From Nitrosococcus wardiae (GTDB lineage Bacteria; Pseudomonadota; Gammaproteobacteria; Nitrosococcales; Nitrosococcaceae): a DNA stretch of 64,000 nucleotides. Below, in pieces: positions 35,271 through 44,100 of this stretch. A model generated the notes under the pieces. It ran no database searches and was not told the origin of the DNA. It saw only the letters and a program-made list of their open reading frames with translations. Within the stretch, counting starts at the first letter, position 1, and each line of letters starts with the position of its first letter. The stretch lies in assembly GCF_004421105.1 (NCBI RefSeq), contig NZ_CP038033.1, positions 1,259,659-1,323,658 of the forward strand. Direction: 5' to 3'. Made by a program: the position numbers and the translations under genes.

Positions 35271-35813
35271 TTTAAGCAGGGGAGGCGTGTTCTTCTCATA
35301 CTATTAGGAGTACTGGTGGCGTTAAATGCCATGGGTACAATTTATTACGGTAAGAAAGAGGCCTTGGAATTGGCCTTTGGCAAAGAAGCCCAAGTTGAGA
35401 TGCAGTCTCTTTTTCTTACCGAAGAACAAGTGGCAAAAATTGAACAACTTGCCCGGACCAAGCTCGAGTCGAAGTTGTTTACTTTTTATGTGGGGCGCGA
35501 TGAGGGCAAGCTGCTGGGTTATGCGGCGATTGAGTCCCATACGGTGCGTACTAAACCGGAGACCTTGCTGATTACTCTGACCCCTACCGGTGAATTGGAT
35601 CAGATTCATGTACTTGCCTTCCATGAACCCCCCGAGTATCAGCCGCCAGAACGCTGGTTTGCCCAGCTTTATCGCCGCCAACTGACCGAACTTAATCTCA
35701 ATTACGGCATTCAGGGCATCACGGGGGCCACCCTAAGCTCGCGGGCGGCAGCGAGTAGTGCCCGTAAAGTGCTTGCCATTTATCAAATTGCCATTAAAGA
35801 GAAAGCGGACTGA
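35262..35813 (+). CDS. membrane-anchored FMN-binding domain protein (RnfG/NqrC-like)
   Basis: A 183-residue protein. An N-terminal membrane helix (VLLILLGVLVALNAMGTIYYG) leads to a periplasmic FMN-binding domain. The flavinylation motif GITGATLSS (about residues 150-158) is the type to which ApbE attaches FMN through a phosphodiester bond on threonine. It probably carries electrons across or outside the inner membrane. It lies between a porin and a nucleotidyltransferase, with a possible regulatory hairpin over its start. Its stop overlaps the next ATG by one base. Confidence 0.85.
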   Translation: MNTFKQGRRVLLILLGVLVALNAMGTIYYGKKEALELAFGKEAQVEMQSLFLTEEQVAKIEQLARTKLESKLFTFYVGRDEGKLLGYAAIESHTVRTKPETLLITLTPTGELDQIHVLAFHEPPEYQPPERWFAQLYRRQLTELNLNYGIQGITGATLSSRAAASSARKVLAIYQIAIKEKAD

Positions 35814-36793
35814 TGGGCTGTGGGCTTGCTTCAGGGCAAGCTTCCAATGCCGCCAAAATTCGTCCGCGTGATTTTATTGAGACCCAGGAAGGGTTGCTCT
35901 TTTCCGTAGTCACCCACCATCAGGAGGAAGGGCGGGCCTTAGGCGTACTGCGCTATGTAAAAAAAGGCGCCTGTTGGTGTAAGGTCAATACCTCACAGGC
36001 GGATAGCCTATTAGAGACTCATTACCCCCACTACCTTTATGACTCTCCCCAGTTGGAAGCCAGACTCCATGGCGTTCCTGTAACTAGGGTAGTCAGGCAC
36101 TATCAGCCCCAGCTAAAGTTGGCAGAAATTCTCACCCTGTTATCGGGAGATGAAATTGAGGAGAAGGTGAGGAGACTGGTTCAGATCTTTGAGGCGGCAG
36201 GGCTGTATTCCCAAAACTTAGGCATTACCGGTTCATTGCTTATTGGCGCCCAGCAGGCGGGTTCCGATATTGACTTAGTGGTGTATGGCCAAAAGAATTT
36301 TCAGCAAGCCCGAAGGATTATTAAGCAGGCGCTCATCAAAGGGCAATTAGAACCGCTCAATGAAGCCCTGTGGCGTGAGACTTATCAGCGGCGGGGGTGT
36401 AGCTTAGATTTTCAGGAATATCTTTGGCATGAGCGGCGTAAGCATAACAAGGCGGTTTGGGAAGGGACCAAATTCGATATTGTACTTGTTTTAAAAGCTG
36501 GGGAAATAGAATTAGATTCTCGGCATTTTCGTAAGCAGGGCAGGAGAAGGCTGCAGGTCCAGGTCTGTGATGGAAGCAGCGCATTTAGTTACCCTGCTTG
36601 CTATCGCTTGGTAGATGCTGAGATAGACACGATAGTGGCTTTCTCCCATACTTACGTGGGGCAAGCCAAGGCTGGCGAATGGGTTGAAGTTGTTGGCCAG
36701 CTAGAACAAGCCAGTGATGGTGAACTTCGAATAGTCGTTGGGTCCAGTCGAGAGGCCCTGGGAGAATATATTAAAGTGATCCCCTCACCTTAG
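35813..36793 (+). CDS. nucleotidyltransferase-fold protein (archaeal-type)
   Basis: A 326-residue protein containing the polymerase-beta-like motif GITGSLLIGAQQAGSDIDLVVYG (about residues 137-159), with the GS and D-x-D residues that bind nucleotide and magnesium. The flanking regions resemble 'predicted nucleotidyltransferase' proteins found in archaea. The reaction and acceptor are unknown. It starts in an ATGA-type one-base overlap (TGATG) with the FMN-binding gene, so the two are translated together. Why they are linked is not clear. Confidence 0.75.
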   Translation: MGCGLASGQASNAAKIRPRDFIETQEGLLFSVVTHHQEEGRALGVLRYVKKGACWCKVNTSQADSLLETHYPHYLYDSPQLEARLHGVPVTRVVRHYQPQLKLAEILTLLSGDEIEEKVRRLVQIFEAAGLYSQNLGITGSLLIGAQQAGSDIDLVVYGQKNFQQARRIIKQALIKGQLEPLNEALWRETYQRRGCSLDFQEYLWHERRKHNKAVWEGTKFDIVLVLKAGEIELDSRHFRKQGRRRLQVQVCDGSSAFSYPACYRLVDAEIDTIVAFSHTYVGQAKAGEWVEVVGQLEQASDGELRIVVGSSREALGEYIKVIPSP

Positions 36794-36822
36794 TTGACAA
36801 AGAACTATATCAAATATAAGTT
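36794..36822 (+). promoter_or_regulatory. candidate promoter and operator of the sNOR cluster
   Basis: TTGACA at 36794-36799 is a consensus -35 box. TATAAG at 36815-36820 is the best -10, at a short 15-base spacing. An imperfect palindrome (AACTATAT caa ATATAAGTT, 36803-36822) overlaps it and could be an NsrR-type operator, which would suit the nsrR gene at 40541. The operator call is weak. Confidence 0.35.
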
Positions 36823-36863
36823 TTGGGGTTCTACATAAATCTAGGAGATAAAGGATAAGCACA

Positions 36864-37394
36864 ATGCAGACAACCGTTTGGTTTATAACACTTGTTGGCG
36901 TAGCGTTGCTTGCAGCAGTGTTTTACTATGTGATCAGTAATTCACAAACGCCTGAAGATTACTCATCTGTCCAGCAGAAATGGTATCGGTTTCGCCATAA
37001 ATGGTTTTATTTCATAGCCATCTTTGGGATCGTGGTCACCTTGGCAACGCTGATACCGTTTCCCCTTCCCTCCCAGGATGCGGCCTATGCCGGTGAGGAC
37101 TATCAGGTAGTTGATGTCAGCGGGCATCAATGGTACTGGACTATGAGCACCGATACTGTGGTCACGGGCAAGCCCGTGGCATTCTATGTTACCGGTGCCG
37201 ATGTCAATCATGGCTTTGGCGTGTATGACGAGAACTTGAAGTTAGTGGCCCAAGTTCAGGCAATGCCCGGCTATACTAACAAGTTGATCCATATTTTTGA
37301 TCAACCAGGTAAATACCGCATTCTCTGCTTGGAGTATTGCGGCTTGGCCCACCATGCCATGATAGCTGAGTTGAAGGTGGAAGCAGCTAGCTAA
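36864..37394 (+). CDS. norS: sNOR CuA subunit (cytochrome oxidase subunit II-like)
   Basis: This subunit would accept electrons from cytochrome c for nitric oxide reduction. It has 176 residues with two membrane helices (about 5-25 and 46-66) and a periplasmic cupredoxin domain. The complete CuA set is visible: His116 (VNHGFGVYD), Cys155, Glu157, Cys159, His163 and Met166 in CLEYCGLAHHAMIAEL. AAGGA lies nine bases upstream of ATG 36864. The order CuA subunit, heme-copper subunit, SenC, membrane protein equals the norSY-senC-orf1 set of ammonia oxidisers. The symbol is given from gene order. By sequence alone it could be called CoxB. Confidence 0.85.
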   Translation: MQTTVWFITLVGVALLAAVFYYVISNSQTPEDYSSVQQKWYRFRHKWFYFIAIFGIVVTLATLIPFPLPSQDAAYAGEDYQVVDVSGHQWYWTMSTDTVVTGKPVAFYVTGADVNHGFGVYDENLKLVAQVQAMPGYTNKLIHIFDQPGKYRILCLEYCGLAHHAMIAELKVEAAS

Positions 37395-37447
37395 GTGCCC
37401 TTCTAGCTAGGTGCTTAAATGTGGAGGAGAAAGCGGAGACAGTTATT

Positions 37448-38938
37448 ATGAGTGCAACAACATTGGATACAGCAGTAAGCAAAAGAGTGGACTATAGTGA
37501 AGCGGAGAATCAGGCTGCCCTAGTTGCAGTAAAAGCCCATCTGATTACTGGATTTCTGGTCTTCTTATTAATGATGCTGGCCGGCGCCGCAATGCGCGCT
37601 GCCCAAAGCAATATGATGCCGGTTGAAGCAGGTCTGTTTTACCAAATTCTGACATTGCACGGAGTTGGTGTGGTGGGTACGGCGGGTATCGCCTCAACCG
37701 GGGTGCTGTGGTATTTCCTGCGCCAGTATGTGCCATTGAGCACCAAGATATTTTGGCTTAATTTTGGTGTTTTTCTTGCTGGCGTCGTCATTATTCTAGG
37801 TTCCATTTTTATTGGAAAGTACGGTGGTGGATGGACTTTTCTTTATCCGTTGCCGGGTATTTCCCTCGGTGCTTGGTCTACCGGCGCCGCCGCCGCATTC
37901 CTGCTAGGATTGCTCATCATTGGTACGGGATTCCTAATCCTCTATTTGGATATGGGCCGTGCCATTCTTTCTCAATATGGGAATTTTGGACGAGCCTTGG
38001 GGCTAACGCAGCTGTTTGGTAAGGAGCCTGTGAACCCTTACCATCCGGCAACCGTGGTAGCCGGGACCATGGTGCTTATAGTCAACTTCATCGGTATTGC
38101 CGTAGGTGCTGTGGTTTTGGTAATGATGCTTGTCAATCTCTATAACCCGGAATTTAAACCCGATGCCCTGCTGGTCAAAAATTTGATTTACTTCTTCGGC
38201 CACGTTTTTATCAATGCCACCATTTATGCTTCGGTGGTCGCAGTTTACGAACTATTGCCCCGTTACACCGGCCGCCCTTATAAAACCTCCAAAGTCTTTT
38301 ATGCGGCTTGGTTTGCCATCGTTTTCATGGTGATGGCGGTTTATCCTCACCATCTATTTATGGACGCCCCCATGCCCATGTGGGCCATGATAACCGCTCA
38401 GGTGCTCTCCTACGGTAGCGGTATTCCGGTGCTAGTAGTTACCGGCTATGGTGCCCTGATGCTCGTGTATCGTTCCGGAATCCAGTGGAATACTGCTAGT
38501 AAATTGCTCATCCTCTCCATGTTTGGTTGGGCAGCCGGCGTTATTCCGGCGATTATCGATGCCATGGTCTCTGTTAACCGCGTCCTTCATAATACCTTGT
38601 GGGTGCCGGGCCATTTCCATTTTTATCTGCTCCTGGGCCTATTGCCGATGATCTTCGGTTTTACCTTCTACCTTCTTAATGGAAAAAAGGAAGGAAAAAC
38701 GCCTTTAACCGAGAAGCTTGGTTTTTACAGCTATTTGATTGGCGGCCTCTTATTGGCCCTCACTTTTCTTGGTAGTGGCGCCCATAGCATCCCCCGTCGT
38801 TGGGCCGTTCATATGGAAGAATGGGTGCCCTATGCACAGTGGGGCACTTTAGCGGCAACACTGGTGGTGCTAGGTGTGCTGCTGTTTACCATTCGTGTTC
38901 TTACCGCGCTTCCGAAAGCCCCGGAGCCTAGCGTATAG
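37448..38938 (+). CDS. norY: sNOR catalytic heme-copper subunit (cytochrome oxidase subunit I-like)
   Basis: The catalytic subunit, 496 residues and about 12 membrane helices. Histidine ligands are all present: His71 (LTLHGVG, low-spin heme), His252 (FGHVFIN, CuB), His301-302 (YPHHLF, CuB), His389 and His391 (VPGHFHFYL, hemes). In true cytochrome oxidases the helix VI motif is His-Pro-Glu-Val-Tyr with a Tyr cross-linked to CuB histidine. Here it reads His-Val-Phe-Ile-Asn, so the tyrosine is replaced by asparagine. This supports NO reduction rather than oxygen reduction, as known for sNOR. ATG 37448 is chosen over the open GTG at 37421 because the conserved sequence begins there. Confidence 0.88.
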   Translation: MSATTLDTAVSKRVDYSEAENQAALVAVKAHLITGFLVFLLMMLAGAAMRAAQSNMMPVEAGLFYQILTLHGVGVVGTAGIASTGVLWYFLRQYVPLSTKIFWLNFGVFLAGVVIILGSIFIGKYGGGWTFLYPLPGISLGAWSTGAAAAFLLGLLIIGTGFLILYLDMGRAILSQYGNFGRALGLTQLFGKEPVNPYHPATVVAGTMVLIVNFIGIAVGAVVLVMMLVNLYNPEFKPDALLVKNLIYFFGHVFINATIYASVVAVYELLPRYTGRPYKTSKVFYAAWFAIVFMVMAVYPHHLFMDAPMPMWAMITAQVLSYGSGIPVLVVTGYGALMLVYRSGIQWNTASKLLILSMFGWAAGVIPAIIDAMVSVNRVLHNTLWVPGHFHFYLLLGLLPMIFGFTFYLLNGKKEGKTPLTEKLGFYSYLIGGLLLALTFLGSGAHSIPRRWAVHMEEWVPYAQWGTLAATLVVLGVLLFTIRVLTALPKAPEPSV

Positions 38939-39236
38939 AAGCAGGAAAGACTTAAGGGACTGTTGTGAGTTTGTGAGTTCTCCTATGGCGGTAATGGCGA
39001 TTGCCAGCCGATAGGGCGGTACTGATGGCGACACGTCCTCAATAAAGAAGGCGTGCCGCCTTTATCCGCATCCGCGTTGGCCTTCCCAGGATAGCGTAGA
39101 TGGGTCTCCTTTAGTGTCAAATGCGGTTCTTTCCTTGAGCGGGGAATGGCATAAATCTACATTTTAAAGAGGGCAGTGTAAATCGAGAGAGCCGGTGTCA
39201 GATCATTAAAGCAACCTAATGTGAGGAGGAGTGGGA
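38939..39236. other. spacer within the sNOR cluster with a short hairpin
   Basis: The 298 bases between norY and senC hold a six-pair GC-rich hairpin (AAGGCG loop TGC, 39048-39062) followed by TTTAT, a possible partial terminator. This could give more norSY than senC-orf1 message. No reading frame or other signal is seen. Confidence 0.4.
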
Positions 39237-39863
39237 ATGAAAACTCTGCTTGCAAGTACCCTCTTAGCCGTAATAAGTTTGACGATCCTATGGGTCGGTA
39301 CGGATGGCGTCCGGGCTTTCACCGCGGAAGAGGCGCGCCGTCTTGAAGTGCGCGAGCATCCGAAGCCTGTTCCCAACTGGCACCTGGAGAATCAGAATGC
39401 TGAGGCGATAGCATTGGGAGATTGGCGTGGGCAATATGTAGTAGTAGATTTCATCTACACCAGTTGCCCCAGTGTTTGTTTGACATTGAGCAGCGGAATG
39501 GGAAGTCTTCAGAAAGAATTTAGCGAAGCGTTAGAGAAGGATAAGCTGCATTTATTGAGTATCAGCTTTGACCCGGAAAAGGATACGCCGGAGCGGCTTC
39601 GAACCCATCTTTCCCATTTCTCCGGTGACGGGGAGCAGTGGGTAGCGGCGCGACCGACCCATCCTGTGGAGAAAAAAGCAATTTTGGATTTCTTCAAGGT
39701 GACGGTTATTCCTGATGAAATGGGCGGTTATACCCATTCTGCAGGTTATCATGTGATTGATCCCCAAGGGCGATTGGTTGCCATTTTTGGCGTGGAGGAG
39801 TATCCAAAATTGCAAGATTACCTGGCCCTGGCGCTTGCTGAAGGAGAAACCAGTGAAGGTTAG
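39237..39863 (+). CDS. senC: SenC/Sco1-family copper chaperone
   Basis: A membrane-anchored thioredoxin-fold protein (208 residues) that delivers copper to the CuA site. The copper-binding CPSVC motif lies in FIYTSCPSVCLTL (about residues 75-87) and the partner histidine in YTHSAGYHVIDPQG (about 168). The N-terminal helix LLASTLLAVISLTILWVG acts as signal anchor. ATG 39237 is preceded by GAGGAGG; a GTG two codons earlier is less likely. It probably matures the NorS CuA centre. Confidence 0.9.
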   Translation: MKTLLASTLLAVISLTILWVGTDGVRAFTAEEARRLEVREHPKPVPNWHLENQNAEAIALGDWRGQYVVVDFIYTSCPSVCLTLSSGMGSLQKEFSEALEKDKLHLLSISFDPEKDTPERLRTHLSHFSGDGEQWVAARPTHPVEKKAILDFFKVTVIPDEMGGYTHSAGYHVIDPQGRLVAIFGVEEYPKLQDYLALALAEGETSEG

Positions 39864-40461
39864 ACAGGGGTGGTATTTGCCCTGCCTGGTGTGGGGAGTG
39901 CTCGCGTTGCCGCCTTTACGGCACGCTTTAGAGTTGAGCATGGTGACCCATATGTTGGTGCAGTTACCGGCTTTGGCGTTCGTAGGGTGGTGGTTGGGGC
40001 AGACTCTTCCTGAGGAATTTAAGCGCAAAATCGCCCCCTGGAACCGGTGGGGTATCACGGGTATGGTTTTGGTGGTTGTGACCGTGCTTTACTGGATGTT
40101 ACCTCGCGCCCTGGATGCTGCTATTTCAGAACCCGCCTTTGAAATTATTAAGTTTATTACGGTTCCTCTATTTATTGGTACCGCTCTTAGCTTGAGCTGG
40201 TTTCAGCTAAGTTCCATAGCCCAGGGCGTTTTGAAGCTAGAATTCTGGGCCATGTTTATGCGCTTAGGCTGGCTGTATATGGTGCTTCCAGACCGCCTTT
40301 GTGCCAATTATTTGCTAGGGGAACAACGTATTCTTGGCCGTGCTTTACTCATTCTTGGCAGTATTTGGGCCGCAAGCTGGACGCTGCGCATTTTATTTGG
40401 GGTGAGGTGGCGAAAGCCTCGGCTATTAGCGTCTAATCCTTCGTTATCGGAAAAGAAATAA
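39853..40461 (+). CDS. sNOR-associated membrane protein (orf1)
   Basis: A 202-residue polytopic membrane protein with about five to six helices (for example SMVTHMLVQLPALAFVGWWL and WGITGMVLVVVTVLYWML). It is loosely reminiscent of CtaG-type oxidase assembly factors, but I cannot prove the family. The start is GTG 39853, with AAGGAG seven bases upstream, overlapping the senC 3' end by 11 bases. The longer frame from 39757 would run inside senC. It is the last gene of the sNOR cluster and ends at a strong terminator. Confidence 0.75.
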   Translation: MKVRQGWYLPCLVWGVLALPPLRHALELSMVTHMLVQLPALAFVGWWLGQTLPEEFKRKIAPWNRWGITGMVLVVVTVLYWMLPRALDAAISEPAFEIIKFITVPLFIGTALSLSWFQLSSIAQGVLKLEFWAMFMRLGWLYMVLPDRLCANYLLGEQRILGRALLILGSIWAASWTLRILFGVRWRKPRLLASNPSLSEKK

Positions 40462-40466
40462 GCTAA

Positions 40467-40518
40467 CTAACCTAATATTGCAAGGAAAAACTGCTGCAAT
40501 ATTAGGTTAGCGGCTTTT
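40467..40518 (+). terminator. strong terminator after the sNOR cluster
   Basis: A perfect 16-base inverted repeat (CTAACCTAATATTGCA at 40467-40482 and its complement at 40495-40510) with a 12-base loop lies six bases after the orf1 stop. CGGCTTTTTG follows. It separates the cluster from the convergent nsrR gene and may work in both directions. Confidence 0.8.
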
Positions 40519-40540
40519 TGCTAATAAGAGTGTCCGGGGG

Positions 40541-41002
40541 TTAATAACCTGCAACTCGGGGTGGGAACCATTCGACCCGGAGCGAAGAGCGCAGTTCGTT
40601 CTTGTTTTTGATCACGTCGGCCAATGTGTACCGATTTAACACCGCCAGAAAGGCGGACCGTGCTTCCCAAAAAACGTCTTTTAATTGGCAGCAGGAGGAA
40701 ATAGAGCAAGTATTGTGGGTGGTGTTGAAACACTCAGCCATATCAAATCGCCCCTCTGTTTGTTGTACTACCCGTCCTAAATTGATTTTCTCAGGTGCCT
40801 GTGACAGGCGCATACCGCCTCCCTTACCCCGAGTGGTATCAATATACCCTAAGCTTGCAAGGTTATGGACGACCTTGCCCAAGTGGTTACGGGAAATATT
40901 ATAGCTGTTGGCGATTTCACTAATTGTGGCCAATTGTTCGTCATGAAGGCTAAGATAAATCAAAACCCGCAGGGAATAATCCGTATACTGTGTTAGTTGC
41001 AT
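40541..41002 (-). CDS. nsrR: Rrf2-family NO-responsive repressor NsrR
   Basis: A 153-residue winged-helix repressor. The N-terminal DNA-binding part (MQLTQYTDYSLRVLIYLSLH and ISRNHLGKVVHNLASLGYI) is characteristic of NsrR rather than IscR. Cysteines 91, 99 and 105 (AECFNTTHNTCSISSCCQLK) are spaced like the 4Fe-4S ligands of NsrR. NO destroys the cluster and relieves repression. It converges on the sNOR genes, which are its probable targets. The C-terminus is normal in length. Confidence 0.9.
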   Translation of the reverse strand: MQLTQYTDYSLRVLIYLSLHDEQLATISEIANSYNISRNHLGKVVHNLASLGYIDTTRGKGGGMRLSQAPEKINLGRVVQQTEGRFDMAECFNTTHNTCSISSCCQLKDVFWEARSAFLAVLNRYTLADVIKNKNELRSSLRVEWFPPRVAGY

Positions 41003-41114
41003 TGCCTCTCCTTATGAGAACTCATAGGTTTTTTAATTATAGATTGAAAATACAGTTTATATCTTGGATAGCTTTAAGTCGAATCAATCAATAAGTTACT
41101 TTAAGTGATTTTAG

Positions 41115-44100
41115 CTATCCATTAGATTTAGCGCCACTGGCATATAAAGGTATGCCGAAGCCGCTAGGTATGCCGAAGCCGCCACCGCCTGGAGTCTCAA
41201 TAATAAAGATATCCCCTCTTCCCATTTGGGTTTGCCCACAGCTAGAAAGTTCCACTACTGAGCCATCAGCGCGTTCGATCCAGTTTCGACCCACCTGACC
41301 GGGTTGTCCCCCTGCCATGCCAAAGGGGGGAATTTTCCGATGGCTTGAGATAATCGCTGCGGCCATCGGTTCAAGAAAACGGAGTCGGCGCACAGTGCCA
41401 TTTCCCCCACGGTATCGACCGTTGCCGGCAGATCCTTTGCGAATCTCAAATGACTCTAATAGGACTGGGAAGCGCCATTCCAATATTTCCGGATCGGTGA
41501 GGCGAGTGTTGGTAATATGGGTATGAACTGCATCGGCACCCTTAAAATTTGGACCGGCGCCGGCACCGCCGCAAATAGTTTCGTAATATTGATACTGCTC
41601 ATTTCCAAAAGTGAAATTATTGCAGGTTCCTTGGGAGGCCGCCATTACTCCCATAGCCCCCAACAGGGCGTCAACGATATATTGGGAGGTCTCCACATTA
41701 CCTGCTGCCACTGCCGCCGGGTAGCATGGATTTAGAAGAGAATGTTCAGGGATAACAATCTTGAGCGGTTTAAAAATCCCTCCATTAAGGGGGATGTCGG
41801 CTTTAACCAAACAACGAAAAACATAAATGACAGCGGCCATGGTGACTGCGGCTGGCGCATTAAAGTTCCCCGAATGCTGTGGACTGGTGCCGGAGAAGTC
41901 GATGATGGCCTGAATACCTTCTTGAGGAGAGGGTCTTTCGATGCGGATGCTCACTTTGATCTTACTGCCATCATCCATGGGATAGGTAAAACTGCCATCT
42001 TTTAGGGTTTCGAGAACGTGGCGCACCGCGGCTTCGGCATTATCTTGAACATGACCCATATAGGCTTGTACCACCTCAAGTCCAAAATGTTCTATCATGC
42101 GTCGAAGTTCTTGCACCCCTTTCTCACAGGCAGCCACTTGGGCTTTAAGGTCTGCCAGATTCTGTTGGATATTGCGGGCCGGATAGGGACCACTGCTTAG
42201 CAAGGTGACGATTTCCTGTTCCAAAAATCGCCCCCCCTCGAGCAATTTAACGTTGTCGATAATGACCCCTTCTTGGTCAATCGCTTGGCTGTAGGGGGGC
42301 ATGGAACCGGGCGTAATCCCTCCAATGTCTCCGTGGTGCCCCCGTGCGGCGACATAAAAGAGGAGCTGTGTTCCTGACTTATCAAATACCGGTTTCACGA
42401 CGGTCACATCGGGTAAATGAGTCCCCCCGTTGTAGGGGGTGTTGAGCATAAAAACATCGCCAGGAGAAATATGTTCTCTATGATGGCGAATCACCGCTTT
42501 AATGCTGGCGCTCATGGATCCCAAGTGAACCGGAATATGTAAGGCATTGGCTACCAGATCCCCCTGTTGATCGAAGATTGCGCAGGAAAAATCCAGTCGT
42601 TCCTTAATGTTGACTGAGGAGGCAGTTTTCTCTAGGACTGCGCCCATTTGATCAGCGATGGATATGAATAGGTTATTAAAGATCTCCAACATTACCGGAT
42701 CAGCCTGGATCCCTATGTCTAACTGCTTAGGCAGCGGTATCACTCGGGTAAGAATGAGATCCCGCCGGGAGGTGAGTTCTGCTTCCCAGCCAGGTTCTAC
42801 GATCGTGGTGCTATTGGTCTCAATAATGATGGCTGGAGCGCTGATTCGGTCATGGGGTTGCATTGCCTCCCGTGGGTAAACCGGTGTCTCTTGGGTTTTT
42901 CCCTCCAGGGTCGCGGTGACTGTAGCTATTATCGGTACTGCTCCCTGTCGTGGCGGAGGGGATTTGACTTGGGCGGCGTCAGATAATAATGGAGTGCTAC
43001 CAATGACTTCTATTTGAGCCGATTCCACAATGAGTTGTTTCTCAGGCATCAAAAAACCAAAAGCCTGTTTATAGGCCCCTAAAAATTCCGCAGCAATTTC
43101 TGCTGGGTGACCGAAATTGACTAGCAAAGAGGTGTCTGTACCTTGGTAGCGCACATGGAGTCTACGGACTGAGGAGATGTCTTCCTGGGCAACGCCCTGG
43201 GCGAGCATTTCCTGTTCCCCTTCTGCCATGAGCTTATCAAAGGTTGCCGCCAATGCAGGCATAAGTTCCTCGCTGAGGGGAGCTTCCACAGCTTTTTCCC
43301 GCAGCAGCCGTAAATCTGCAAGACCCATTCCGTAGGCGGAGAGCAGCCCGGCGTAGGGATGGATGAGGACCCGTTTTATGCCTAGGGCATCGGCAACCAG
43401 GCACGCATGTTGTCCTGCCGCGCTTCCCAAACAGCATAACCCGTATTCCGAGACATTATAGCCACGCTGAATAGAGATGTGTTTGATGGCATTGGCCATA
43501 TTTTCCACCGCAACAGCAAGAAAACCTTCTGCCACTTGAAGCGGGGTTCGGTCATCTCCTGTAGTTGCTTTGATCTCAGCAGCTAGGGCGGTAAACTTTT
43601 CTTGGACAATGGCCTTATCCAAGGGTTGTTTGGCGTGGGTGCCAAATACTTTAGGAAAGAATTCGGGCTGGAGTTTACCCAGCATGACGTTGCAGTCAGT
43701 GACCGTCAAAGGCCCGCCCTTGCGGTAGCAAGCCGGTCCAGGCTGTGCTCCGGCAGAGTCAGGCCCTACCCGATAACGGGCGCCGTCGAAATGGAGAATG
43801 GAGCCTCCCCCCGCAGCAACGGTATGGATCTGCATCATGGGAGCCCGTATCCGAACCCCTGCTACTTCAGTTTCAAAAGCCCGCTCATACTCCCCAGCAT
43901 AGTGGCTAACATCGGTTGAGGTCCCTCCCATATCAAATCCAATCACCTGATGGAAATCAGCAAGTTCCGAGGTCCGGGCCATACCGACGATACCTCCGGC
44001 AGGGCCAGACAAGATGGCGTCTTTACCCTGGAAGCAATGGGCTTCACTCAGTCCCCCGTTGGATTGCATAAAGAGCAAGCGAATGTTGCCCAACTCGGCG

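Follow-up and report, generated by a model that had tools for sequence, protein, structure and literature searches.

The sNOR gene cluster of Nitrosococcus wardiae, its NsrR-type neighbor and a candidate operator in the norS promoter

Known sNOR systems and the Nitrosococcus wardiae cluster

The heme-copper enzymes termed sNOR, known from Nitrosomonas and Nitrosococcus, are encoded by the gene set norS-norY-senC-orf1 and combine a CuA-bearing small subunit with a large subunit having six histidines and an Asn in place of the cross-linked oxidase Tyr; this Asn is given as the sNOR hallmark in Table A4 of PMC8756737 (after Hemp and Gennis 2008). Here we describe one such cluster, found in a stretch of 64,000 nucleotides (nt) referred to as “the window”, which spans positions 1259659-1323658 of the single contig of 4,022,640 bases constituting the genome of Nitrosococcus wardiae (G000; the other G and L labels denote compared genomes and loci), together with the Rrf2-family regulator gene adjoining it and a candidate NsrR operator in front of norS. 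No difference was found between the window enzyme and the known sNOR; the family, its Asn and the presence of both sNOR and NsrR in this genus being already known, what is added here is the recurrence of the pairing and the existence of a matching site.

There is an open dispute (PMC6967387) on whether sNOR reduces O2 or forms nitrous oxide (N2O). The enzyme is called “proposed” (PMC11388526) and the nitric oxide (NO) reductase activity of the family rests on indirect evidence (PMC6967387, PMC11388526), indirect evidence of NO reduction in Nitrococcus being also cited (PMC6967387). The motif and the regulon of NsrR were described by Rodionov 2005 (PMC1274295); in the part of that paper available to us sNOR is not named among the NsrR targets, and our literature search found no paper stating that NsrR controls sNOR. 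The N. oceani sNOR (Noc2969-2971) and NsrR (Noc2967) appear in one published table (PMC3772326), and among the five strains of PMC4940428 nsrR is reported only for N. europaea.

The reading that we favor, with moderate confidence, is that the sNOR operon of N. wardiae encodes an NO reductase directly controlled by the neighboring NsrR, direct control of norS by NO being likely. In the mechanism proposed, NsrR carrying its iron-sulfur (Fe-S) cluster would occupy positions 36800-36822, across the spacer between the -35 and -10 elements, and block transcription; NO arising from hydroxylamine oxidation or nitrite reduction would attack the cluster and release the regulator. A periplasmic cytochrome c or cupredoxin would then hand electrons to the CuA of NorS and these would pass to the heme-CuB site of NorY, where two NO would yield N2O, with SenC aiding the loading of copper and the orf1 product probably aiding assembly. 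Ammonia oxidizers rank among the important N2O sources. If sNOR promoters have a conserved operator and an NO-sensing repressor, the physiological signal could be tested directly and cheaply in cultured species, and NO-controlled sNOR could be recognized by this marker in other genomes.

Active site and phylogeny of the enzyme

The cluster is of the standard sNOR type and occupies window positions 36864-40461 on the forward strand; its products match COX2, COX1 and SCO1/SenC, whereas that of orf1 matched no family in a Pfam or NCBIfam scan. The original prediction of a four-gene sNOR set facing a convergent regulator gene, with a complete CuA site, all heme/CuB histidines and an Asn in place of the Tyr, proved correct in each of these respects. 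In NorS the six CuA ligands (H116, C155, E157, C159, H163 and M166) are all present and invariant in a 10-row alignment, and in NorY the six histidines (H71, H252, H301, H302, H389 and H391) are invariant in 10/10 aligned rows. Helix VI of NorY reads H-V-F-I-N, so that N256 falls at the position of the cross-linked Tyr; Asn occupies this position in the ten aligned rows and in 36/36 sNOR loci, and the seven positions (six His and the Asn) are unchanged in the 34 sNOR rows of a fuller alignment. At the Tyr position 13 other heme-copper rows have Tyr (10 rows), Glu (L006) or Gln (L135), the last (L137) being in the wrong frame and unreadable.

All four sNOR genes were recognized in 33/36 loci, the exceptions being L047 (norS-norY only), L121 (no orf1) and L120, whose norS lies past the contig end, so that the site counts given below comprise 35 loci instead of 36. 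Three Nitrosomonas loci come from a collection scan and three loci from plasmids; the tree and site counts refer to sampled genomes whose rows are strongly related.

By its sequence the enzyme is an ordinary sNOR member. Identity with cNOR or qNOR, for which the same reaction is proposed as for sNOR, was rejected because the active-site residue is Asn instead of Glu and CuA is present. cNOR and qNOR are not known to have a CuA subunit. The genome contains six further COX1-family matches, one of which (the cNOR L006) has the Glu at the active-site position. A plain oxidase identity was likewise set aside, in view of the Asn for Tyr and of the separation from the Tyr-bearing oxidases in the tree. 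The B-type (ba3) oxygen reductases belong to the COX1 family like NorY, and the stretch HNTLWVPGHFH is found also in a Haloarcula ba3 row, but their mark, the cross-linked Tyr in helix VI, is absent from NorY, which falls in a separate clade.

In the reduced NorY tree 34 sNOR rows are split from seven Tyr rows with support of 100/99, the window NorY lying among the Nitrosococcaceae, adjoining Nitrosomonas, and L135, which has Gln, siding with the oxidases; the phylogeny suggested along with the original prediction therefore places the large subunit outside the oxygen reductases. This tree omits L137 (Azospirillum, wrong frame) as well as the cNOR L006, L136, L141 and A_L004 (long or redundant); in a fuller tree, which includes very long rows, one being the wrong-frame L137, the same split obtains only 89/55. 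L046 and L120, with incomplete norY, are in neither tree, and the over-long N-termini of L047, L119, L123 and L125 were trimmed. The trees hold no bNOR, gNOR or nNOR references, and the exact place of sNOR among the NO reductase families lies outside their scope. An AlphaFold2 model of NorY made from 4 sequences had a mean predicted local distance difference test score (pLDDT) of 36.7 and was unusable.

The separation in the tree bears on the possibility, to which we attach a low probability, that NorSY is a high-affinity B-type terminal oxygen reductase and that NsrR serves to shift respiration toward an NO-tolerant oxidase when NO poisons the A-type oxidases. An oxidase role has been proposed for the N. 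europaea enzyme (Sedlacek 2020) from its rise under O2 limitation (PMC6967387); the CuA ligands and CuB histidines are complete, all 25 matched sequences of the PDB are titled cytochrome c oxidase or ba3 oxidase, and regulation through an NO sensor would be compatible with such a role as well. The residue at the Tyr position, on the other hand, is Tyr in 10/10 readable oxidase-type rows and Asn in every sNOR locus, and the tree parts the two groups. The recurrent pairing with a regulator documented below bears on the dispute and favors an NO-removing role of sNOR, but leaves the question unsettled, because an NO-tolerant oxidase could have the same control.

A NorY profile (E 1e-50 or better) detected sNOR in 6/398 genomes of a phylum sample and 14/369 of a class sample, own genome included in both figures, and in 2/74 and 8/299 genomes of two families, some genomes being in several samples; with the NorY protein as query (E 1e-20) sNOR was found in 7/95 relatives, own genome included.

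Two plasmid-borne genes deserve separate mention. The Defluviimonas plasmid protein with Gln at the Tyr position (L135:1291-3021) is encoded next to heme o synthase and SCO genes, Gln being the residue listed for eNOR (PMC8756737), and norY of a Parasedimentitalea plasmid (L046:5938-7394) is split in two overlapping open reading frames (ORFs), for which the (incomplete) PLSDB table has no gene.

The linked regulator and the candidate operator

An Rrf2 gene adjoins 17/36 sNOR clusters. The six Nitrosococcaceae, counting the window, have it in convergent orientation at the 3′ end of the cluster, with L111 having it on the same side, ~1 kb off; in ten loci (G080, the Ruegeria and Parasedimentitalea plasmids, L105-L107 and L114-L117) it is divergent and has the norS promoter region in common with the cluster. 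On the NorY tree the linkage entails 6 changes; apart from the two named plasmids, the linked loci bear seven family labels. By chance ~0.6 Rrf2 neighbors would be expected in 36 stretches of 13 kb, an estimate derived from five Rrf2 matches (one inside a 459-aa frame) in the 4.0 Mb of the own genome and applied to loci that are not independent. A search with the window regulator in seven genomes gave the sNOR neighbor as top match in 7/7, all others having at most 33% identity.

The regulator itself is most likely NsrR, as judged from its sequence and in keeping with the original prediction. It has the Rrf2 domain and the three cluster Cys expected of NsrR. No second NsrR-like protein was found in the genome; the remaining own Rrf2 proteins that were inspected are IscR, a Suf regulator and an IscR-like protein. 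The window regulator is similar to NsrR of E. coli, N. europaea and S. coelicolor, which are Rrf2 proteins with three Cys and D8, but differs from them in its 7/5 Cys spacing and in scoring below the NCBIfam NsrR equivalog cut-off (131.8 vs 182 bits). All 17 linked regulators have three Cys with spacing 7/5, as in the Nitrosococcaceae, or 4/5. Asp8, reportedly the fourth cluster ligand in the structure of S. coelicolor NsrR, is conserved in 9/9 rows of one regulator alignment and in 17/17 linked regulators of another; Arg is found at this position in IscR and the IscR-like protein of the own genome, but the own Suf regulator also has Asp (TDY), so that the residue is not specific for NsrR.

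It is very unlikely, in our judgment, that the regulator is instead akin to RirA or IscR and senses iron or the Fe-S status of the cell. This would agree with the 7/5 spacing, with the RirA score exceeding the NsrR score for the window protein and for L106 (RirA 134.6 vs NsrR 130.4 bits), and with the failure of every linked regulator scanned to reach the NsrR cut-off. Of the seven other linked regulators scanned, however, six score higher for NsrR, namely the four with 4/5 spacing (147.5, 152.6, 152.9 and 142.9 bits, vs 117.5 to 136.5 for RirA) and those of L045 and L021; the 17 linked proteins group together vs the own IscR, IscR-like and Suf regulators (95/92, in a tree holding no named RirA or NsrR reference); and the sites are NsrR-like, several of them preceding NO genes.

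NsrR binds an inverted repeat of the 11-1-11 type, from which NO releases it. The candidate operator was identified with a matrix based on 26 different NsrR sites published for E. coli, in part supported by chromatin immunoprecipitation (ChIP) and in part predicted (Table 4 of PMC5320621). The best site of the 64-kb window, which resembles the E. coli NsrR sites, is 36800-36822, with 17.8 bits, the next scoring 13.5, and only 2/300 column-permuted matrices of the same composition placed the norS region of the window first. When sites were ranked within each locus, with the norS promoter region defined as extending from 150 nt before the ORF start of norS to 60 nt beyond it, this region held the best matrix site in 16/17 linked clusters and the second best in the remaining one (L022). 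The permuted matrices placed it first in no more than 11 linked clusters (mean 4.7); it is the linked group, and not the unlinked one, that stands out in this test. The norS promoter thus holds an NsrR-type site of above-chance quality, an operator candidate by its sequence. With a 23-mer NsrR consensus the window site scores 15/20, a value reached by 0/200 shuffles and at three places in the 64 kb, this one and the nsrR promoter included, while the norS site of G080, AAGATGCATCCGCTATACATCTT, agrees with the Rodionov core at 14/14 positions. Scores of at least 10 against this core are found in 14/17 linked vs 8/18 unlinked loci, and the consensus-scoring comparison gives a Mann-Whitney p of 0.007, relatedness being ignored.

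In the four Nitrosococcus species compared the site lies in the -35/-10 spacer, inside a 33-nt block having 30/33 identical columns; the flanks, compared without gaps and with a 25-nt key within the block as anchor, are identical at 36/60 positions upstream and 17/42 downstream. The imperfect palindrome that the original prediction had seen over the promoter (36794-36822) consists of TTGACA followed by the 23-mer 36800-36822; the palindrome stands, its 23-mer being the top matrix site, whereas the promoter call comes out weaker.

Several observations weigh against direct control by NsrR of an NO-reducing enzyme, in addition to the role proposed for N. europaea sNOR. The -35 element of norS is perfect but its -10 is poor (TAAGTT at 17 nt or TATAAG at 15 nt), and the promoter is missing from the list of a promoter scanner. 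The core gATGyAT-N5-ATrCATc is matched at 9/14 positions in the window site, a score that half of comparable stretches, as well as the reversed consensus, attain; the Rodionov core, failing here, was set aside. The norS region ranks first also in 6/18 unlinked loci, near the mean of 4.0 (maximum 7) of the permuted matrices, and A+T-rich promoters therefore raise the baseline. A test of regulator against site on 5 independent pairs, labeled from 23-mer scores of 15 or more, is not significant (median p 0.125). The window regulator scores 134.8 bits for RirA vs 131.8 for NsrR, both below cut-off, and its gene, being convergent, has no promoter in common with norS. In 3/3 Nitrosomonas loci, with 1.8 to 5.4 kb of upstream sequence covered, neither a linked regulator nor a good site was found, unlike in the window. 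Finally, the induction of norS of N. oceani in published arrays, 9.6-fold with ammonium and 7-fold with hydroxylamine relative to starved cells (PMC3772326), agrees with the reading favored here but can be read equally as a response to energy supply.

In a second alternative, likewise considered unlikely, NorSY is an NO reductase beyond the control of the neighboring Rrf2 protein, the 23-mer is just an A+T-rich promoter and expression follows the energy state of the cell. The low core score of the window site, the convergent orientation of nsrR and the fact that in N. oceani ammonium and hydroxylamine act as strong and general inducers agree with it; the rarity with which permuted matrices put the site first, and the recurrence of linkage and site in other families, ten loci having a divergent regulator and a common intergenic region, speak against it and for direct control by NsrR.

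A broader reading, offered tentatively and somewhat short of even chances, is that NsrR and sNOR constitute an old, recurrent NO-sensing and NO-removing pair of Proteobacteria, in which the regulator has switched sides but kept its place next to the enzyme, and the operator has stayed at the norS promoter; Nitrosomonas would have kept TTGACA and lost regulator and operator, its sNOR being rewired to oxygen limitation. The Nitrosomonas part is founded on three loci, N. europaea not being among them. If true, such rewiring would reconcile the studies of N. europaea, which indicate an oxidase, with the control and the active site of the family, which indicate NO reduction.

Layout of the locus and NsrR-type sites elsewhere

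The features of the locus are collected in Table 1. The starts given there for norY (ATG), senC (ATG) and orf1 (GTG, which makes it overlap senC) are likely corrections, proposed from the sequence, of the listed ORFs; in five other Nitrosococcaceae the listed norY ORFs are of 491-503 aa. SenC is a probable copper chaperone. The hairpin between orf1 and nsrR is a probable terminator common to the two genes; it is absent from the list of a simple-terminator scan, and an Rfam scan of 36500-41300 gave no match. The site upstream of nsrR suggests possible autoregulation, and the orthologous nsrR promoter of G005 has a perfect palindrome.

Table 1. Coordinates (window positions) of the genes and predicted elements of the N. 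wardiae sNOR locus
Feature	Coordinates	Strand	Remarks
-35-like hexamer of norS promoter (TTGACA)	36794..36799	+	Also in G001-G004 and three Nitrosomonas loci, not in G005
Candidate NsrR operator AAGAACTATATCAAATATAAGTT	36800..36822		Between -35 and -10 of norS; rank 1 with E. coli NsrR matrix
norS	36864..37394	+	CuA-bearing small subunit, 176 aa
norY	37448..38938	+	Large heme-copper subunit, 496 aa; listed ORF starts at GTG 37421
senC	39237..39863	+	SCO1/SenC family protein; listed ORF starts at GTG 39231
orf1	39853..40461	+	Fourth sNOR cluster gene, conserved; listed ORF starts at TTG 39757
Strong hairpin between convergent orf1 and nsrR	40460..40516		-28 kcal/mol, z -6.0, 0/200 shuffles as stable
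nsrR	40541..41002	-	Rrf2-family regulator, 153 aa, C91-X7-C99-X5-C105 and D8
Weak candidate NsrR site upstream of nsrR	41036..41058		15/20 vs 23-mer NsrR consensus; 15th in matrix scan

The gap of ~300 nt between norY and senC (38939-39236) has a smaller counterpart in other Nitrosococcaceae, and members of other families have a short gap or none. The response of SenC differed from that of NorSY in the N. oceani arrays (PMC3772326), and because of this and of the gap a separate promoter for senC is possible. Directly upstream of norS (35813-36793) there is a nucleotidyltransferase gene that is whole in G000 and G001 and is represented by only short matches in G002 and G003.

Scanning seven genomes with the 23-mer NsrR consensus, at most 3 mismatches being allowed, yielded 32 forward places, vs 6 for the reversed pattern; G080 had none, and among the norS sites the scan misses those of the window and of G080 and finds only that of G004, for which reason it was not taken as proof of the norS site. 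The surroundings of 18 of the 32 places were inspected. Eleven of these sites precede multicopper-oxidase-type genes in G000-G003 (protein families having been scanned in G000 and G001 only); single sites are found before the gene of a NorB-type NO reductase that includes a cytochrome domain of its own (G005), an FeS-assembly gene accompanied by NnrS (G004), a gene for an Mrp-type Fe-S carrier (G005), norS (G004) and nsrR (G005), and the other two (L043 and L044, both in G000) have no NO-related gene nearby. The inspected sites thus lie for the most part at genes connected with NO or Fe-S, which is what NsrR would lead one to expect, and the regulator probably serves a wider NO regulon, since its predicted sites precede multicopper-oxidase-type, NorB-type and NnrS genes in this and sister genomes. 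The “self-contained” character that the original prediction ascribed to the module is not supported, because the cluster lacks a gene for an electron donor and these other genes also have NsrR-type sites.

One two-domain multicopper oxidase gene of N. wardiae (L037:5077-6400, corresponding to G000:C1:3779076-3780399) is split into ORFs of 141 and 145 aa, its counterpart in G001 being intact (364 aa, L128:6845-7939); an NsrR-type site is located upstream of the split gene and three more before a neighboring short relative. Another site similar to the norS operator (17.0 bits; L143:1501-1523, G000:C1:785737-785759) is situated in front of a cytochrome c gene, which has an A-type oxidase gene (L001) at a distance of ~3.4 kb; one match was obtained with the reversed control pattern as well. 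The 23-mer AATCTGCATTTTATATGCATATG occurs three times in the own genome (G000:C1:13780, 4000666 and 4018729) and probably belongs to a repeated element.

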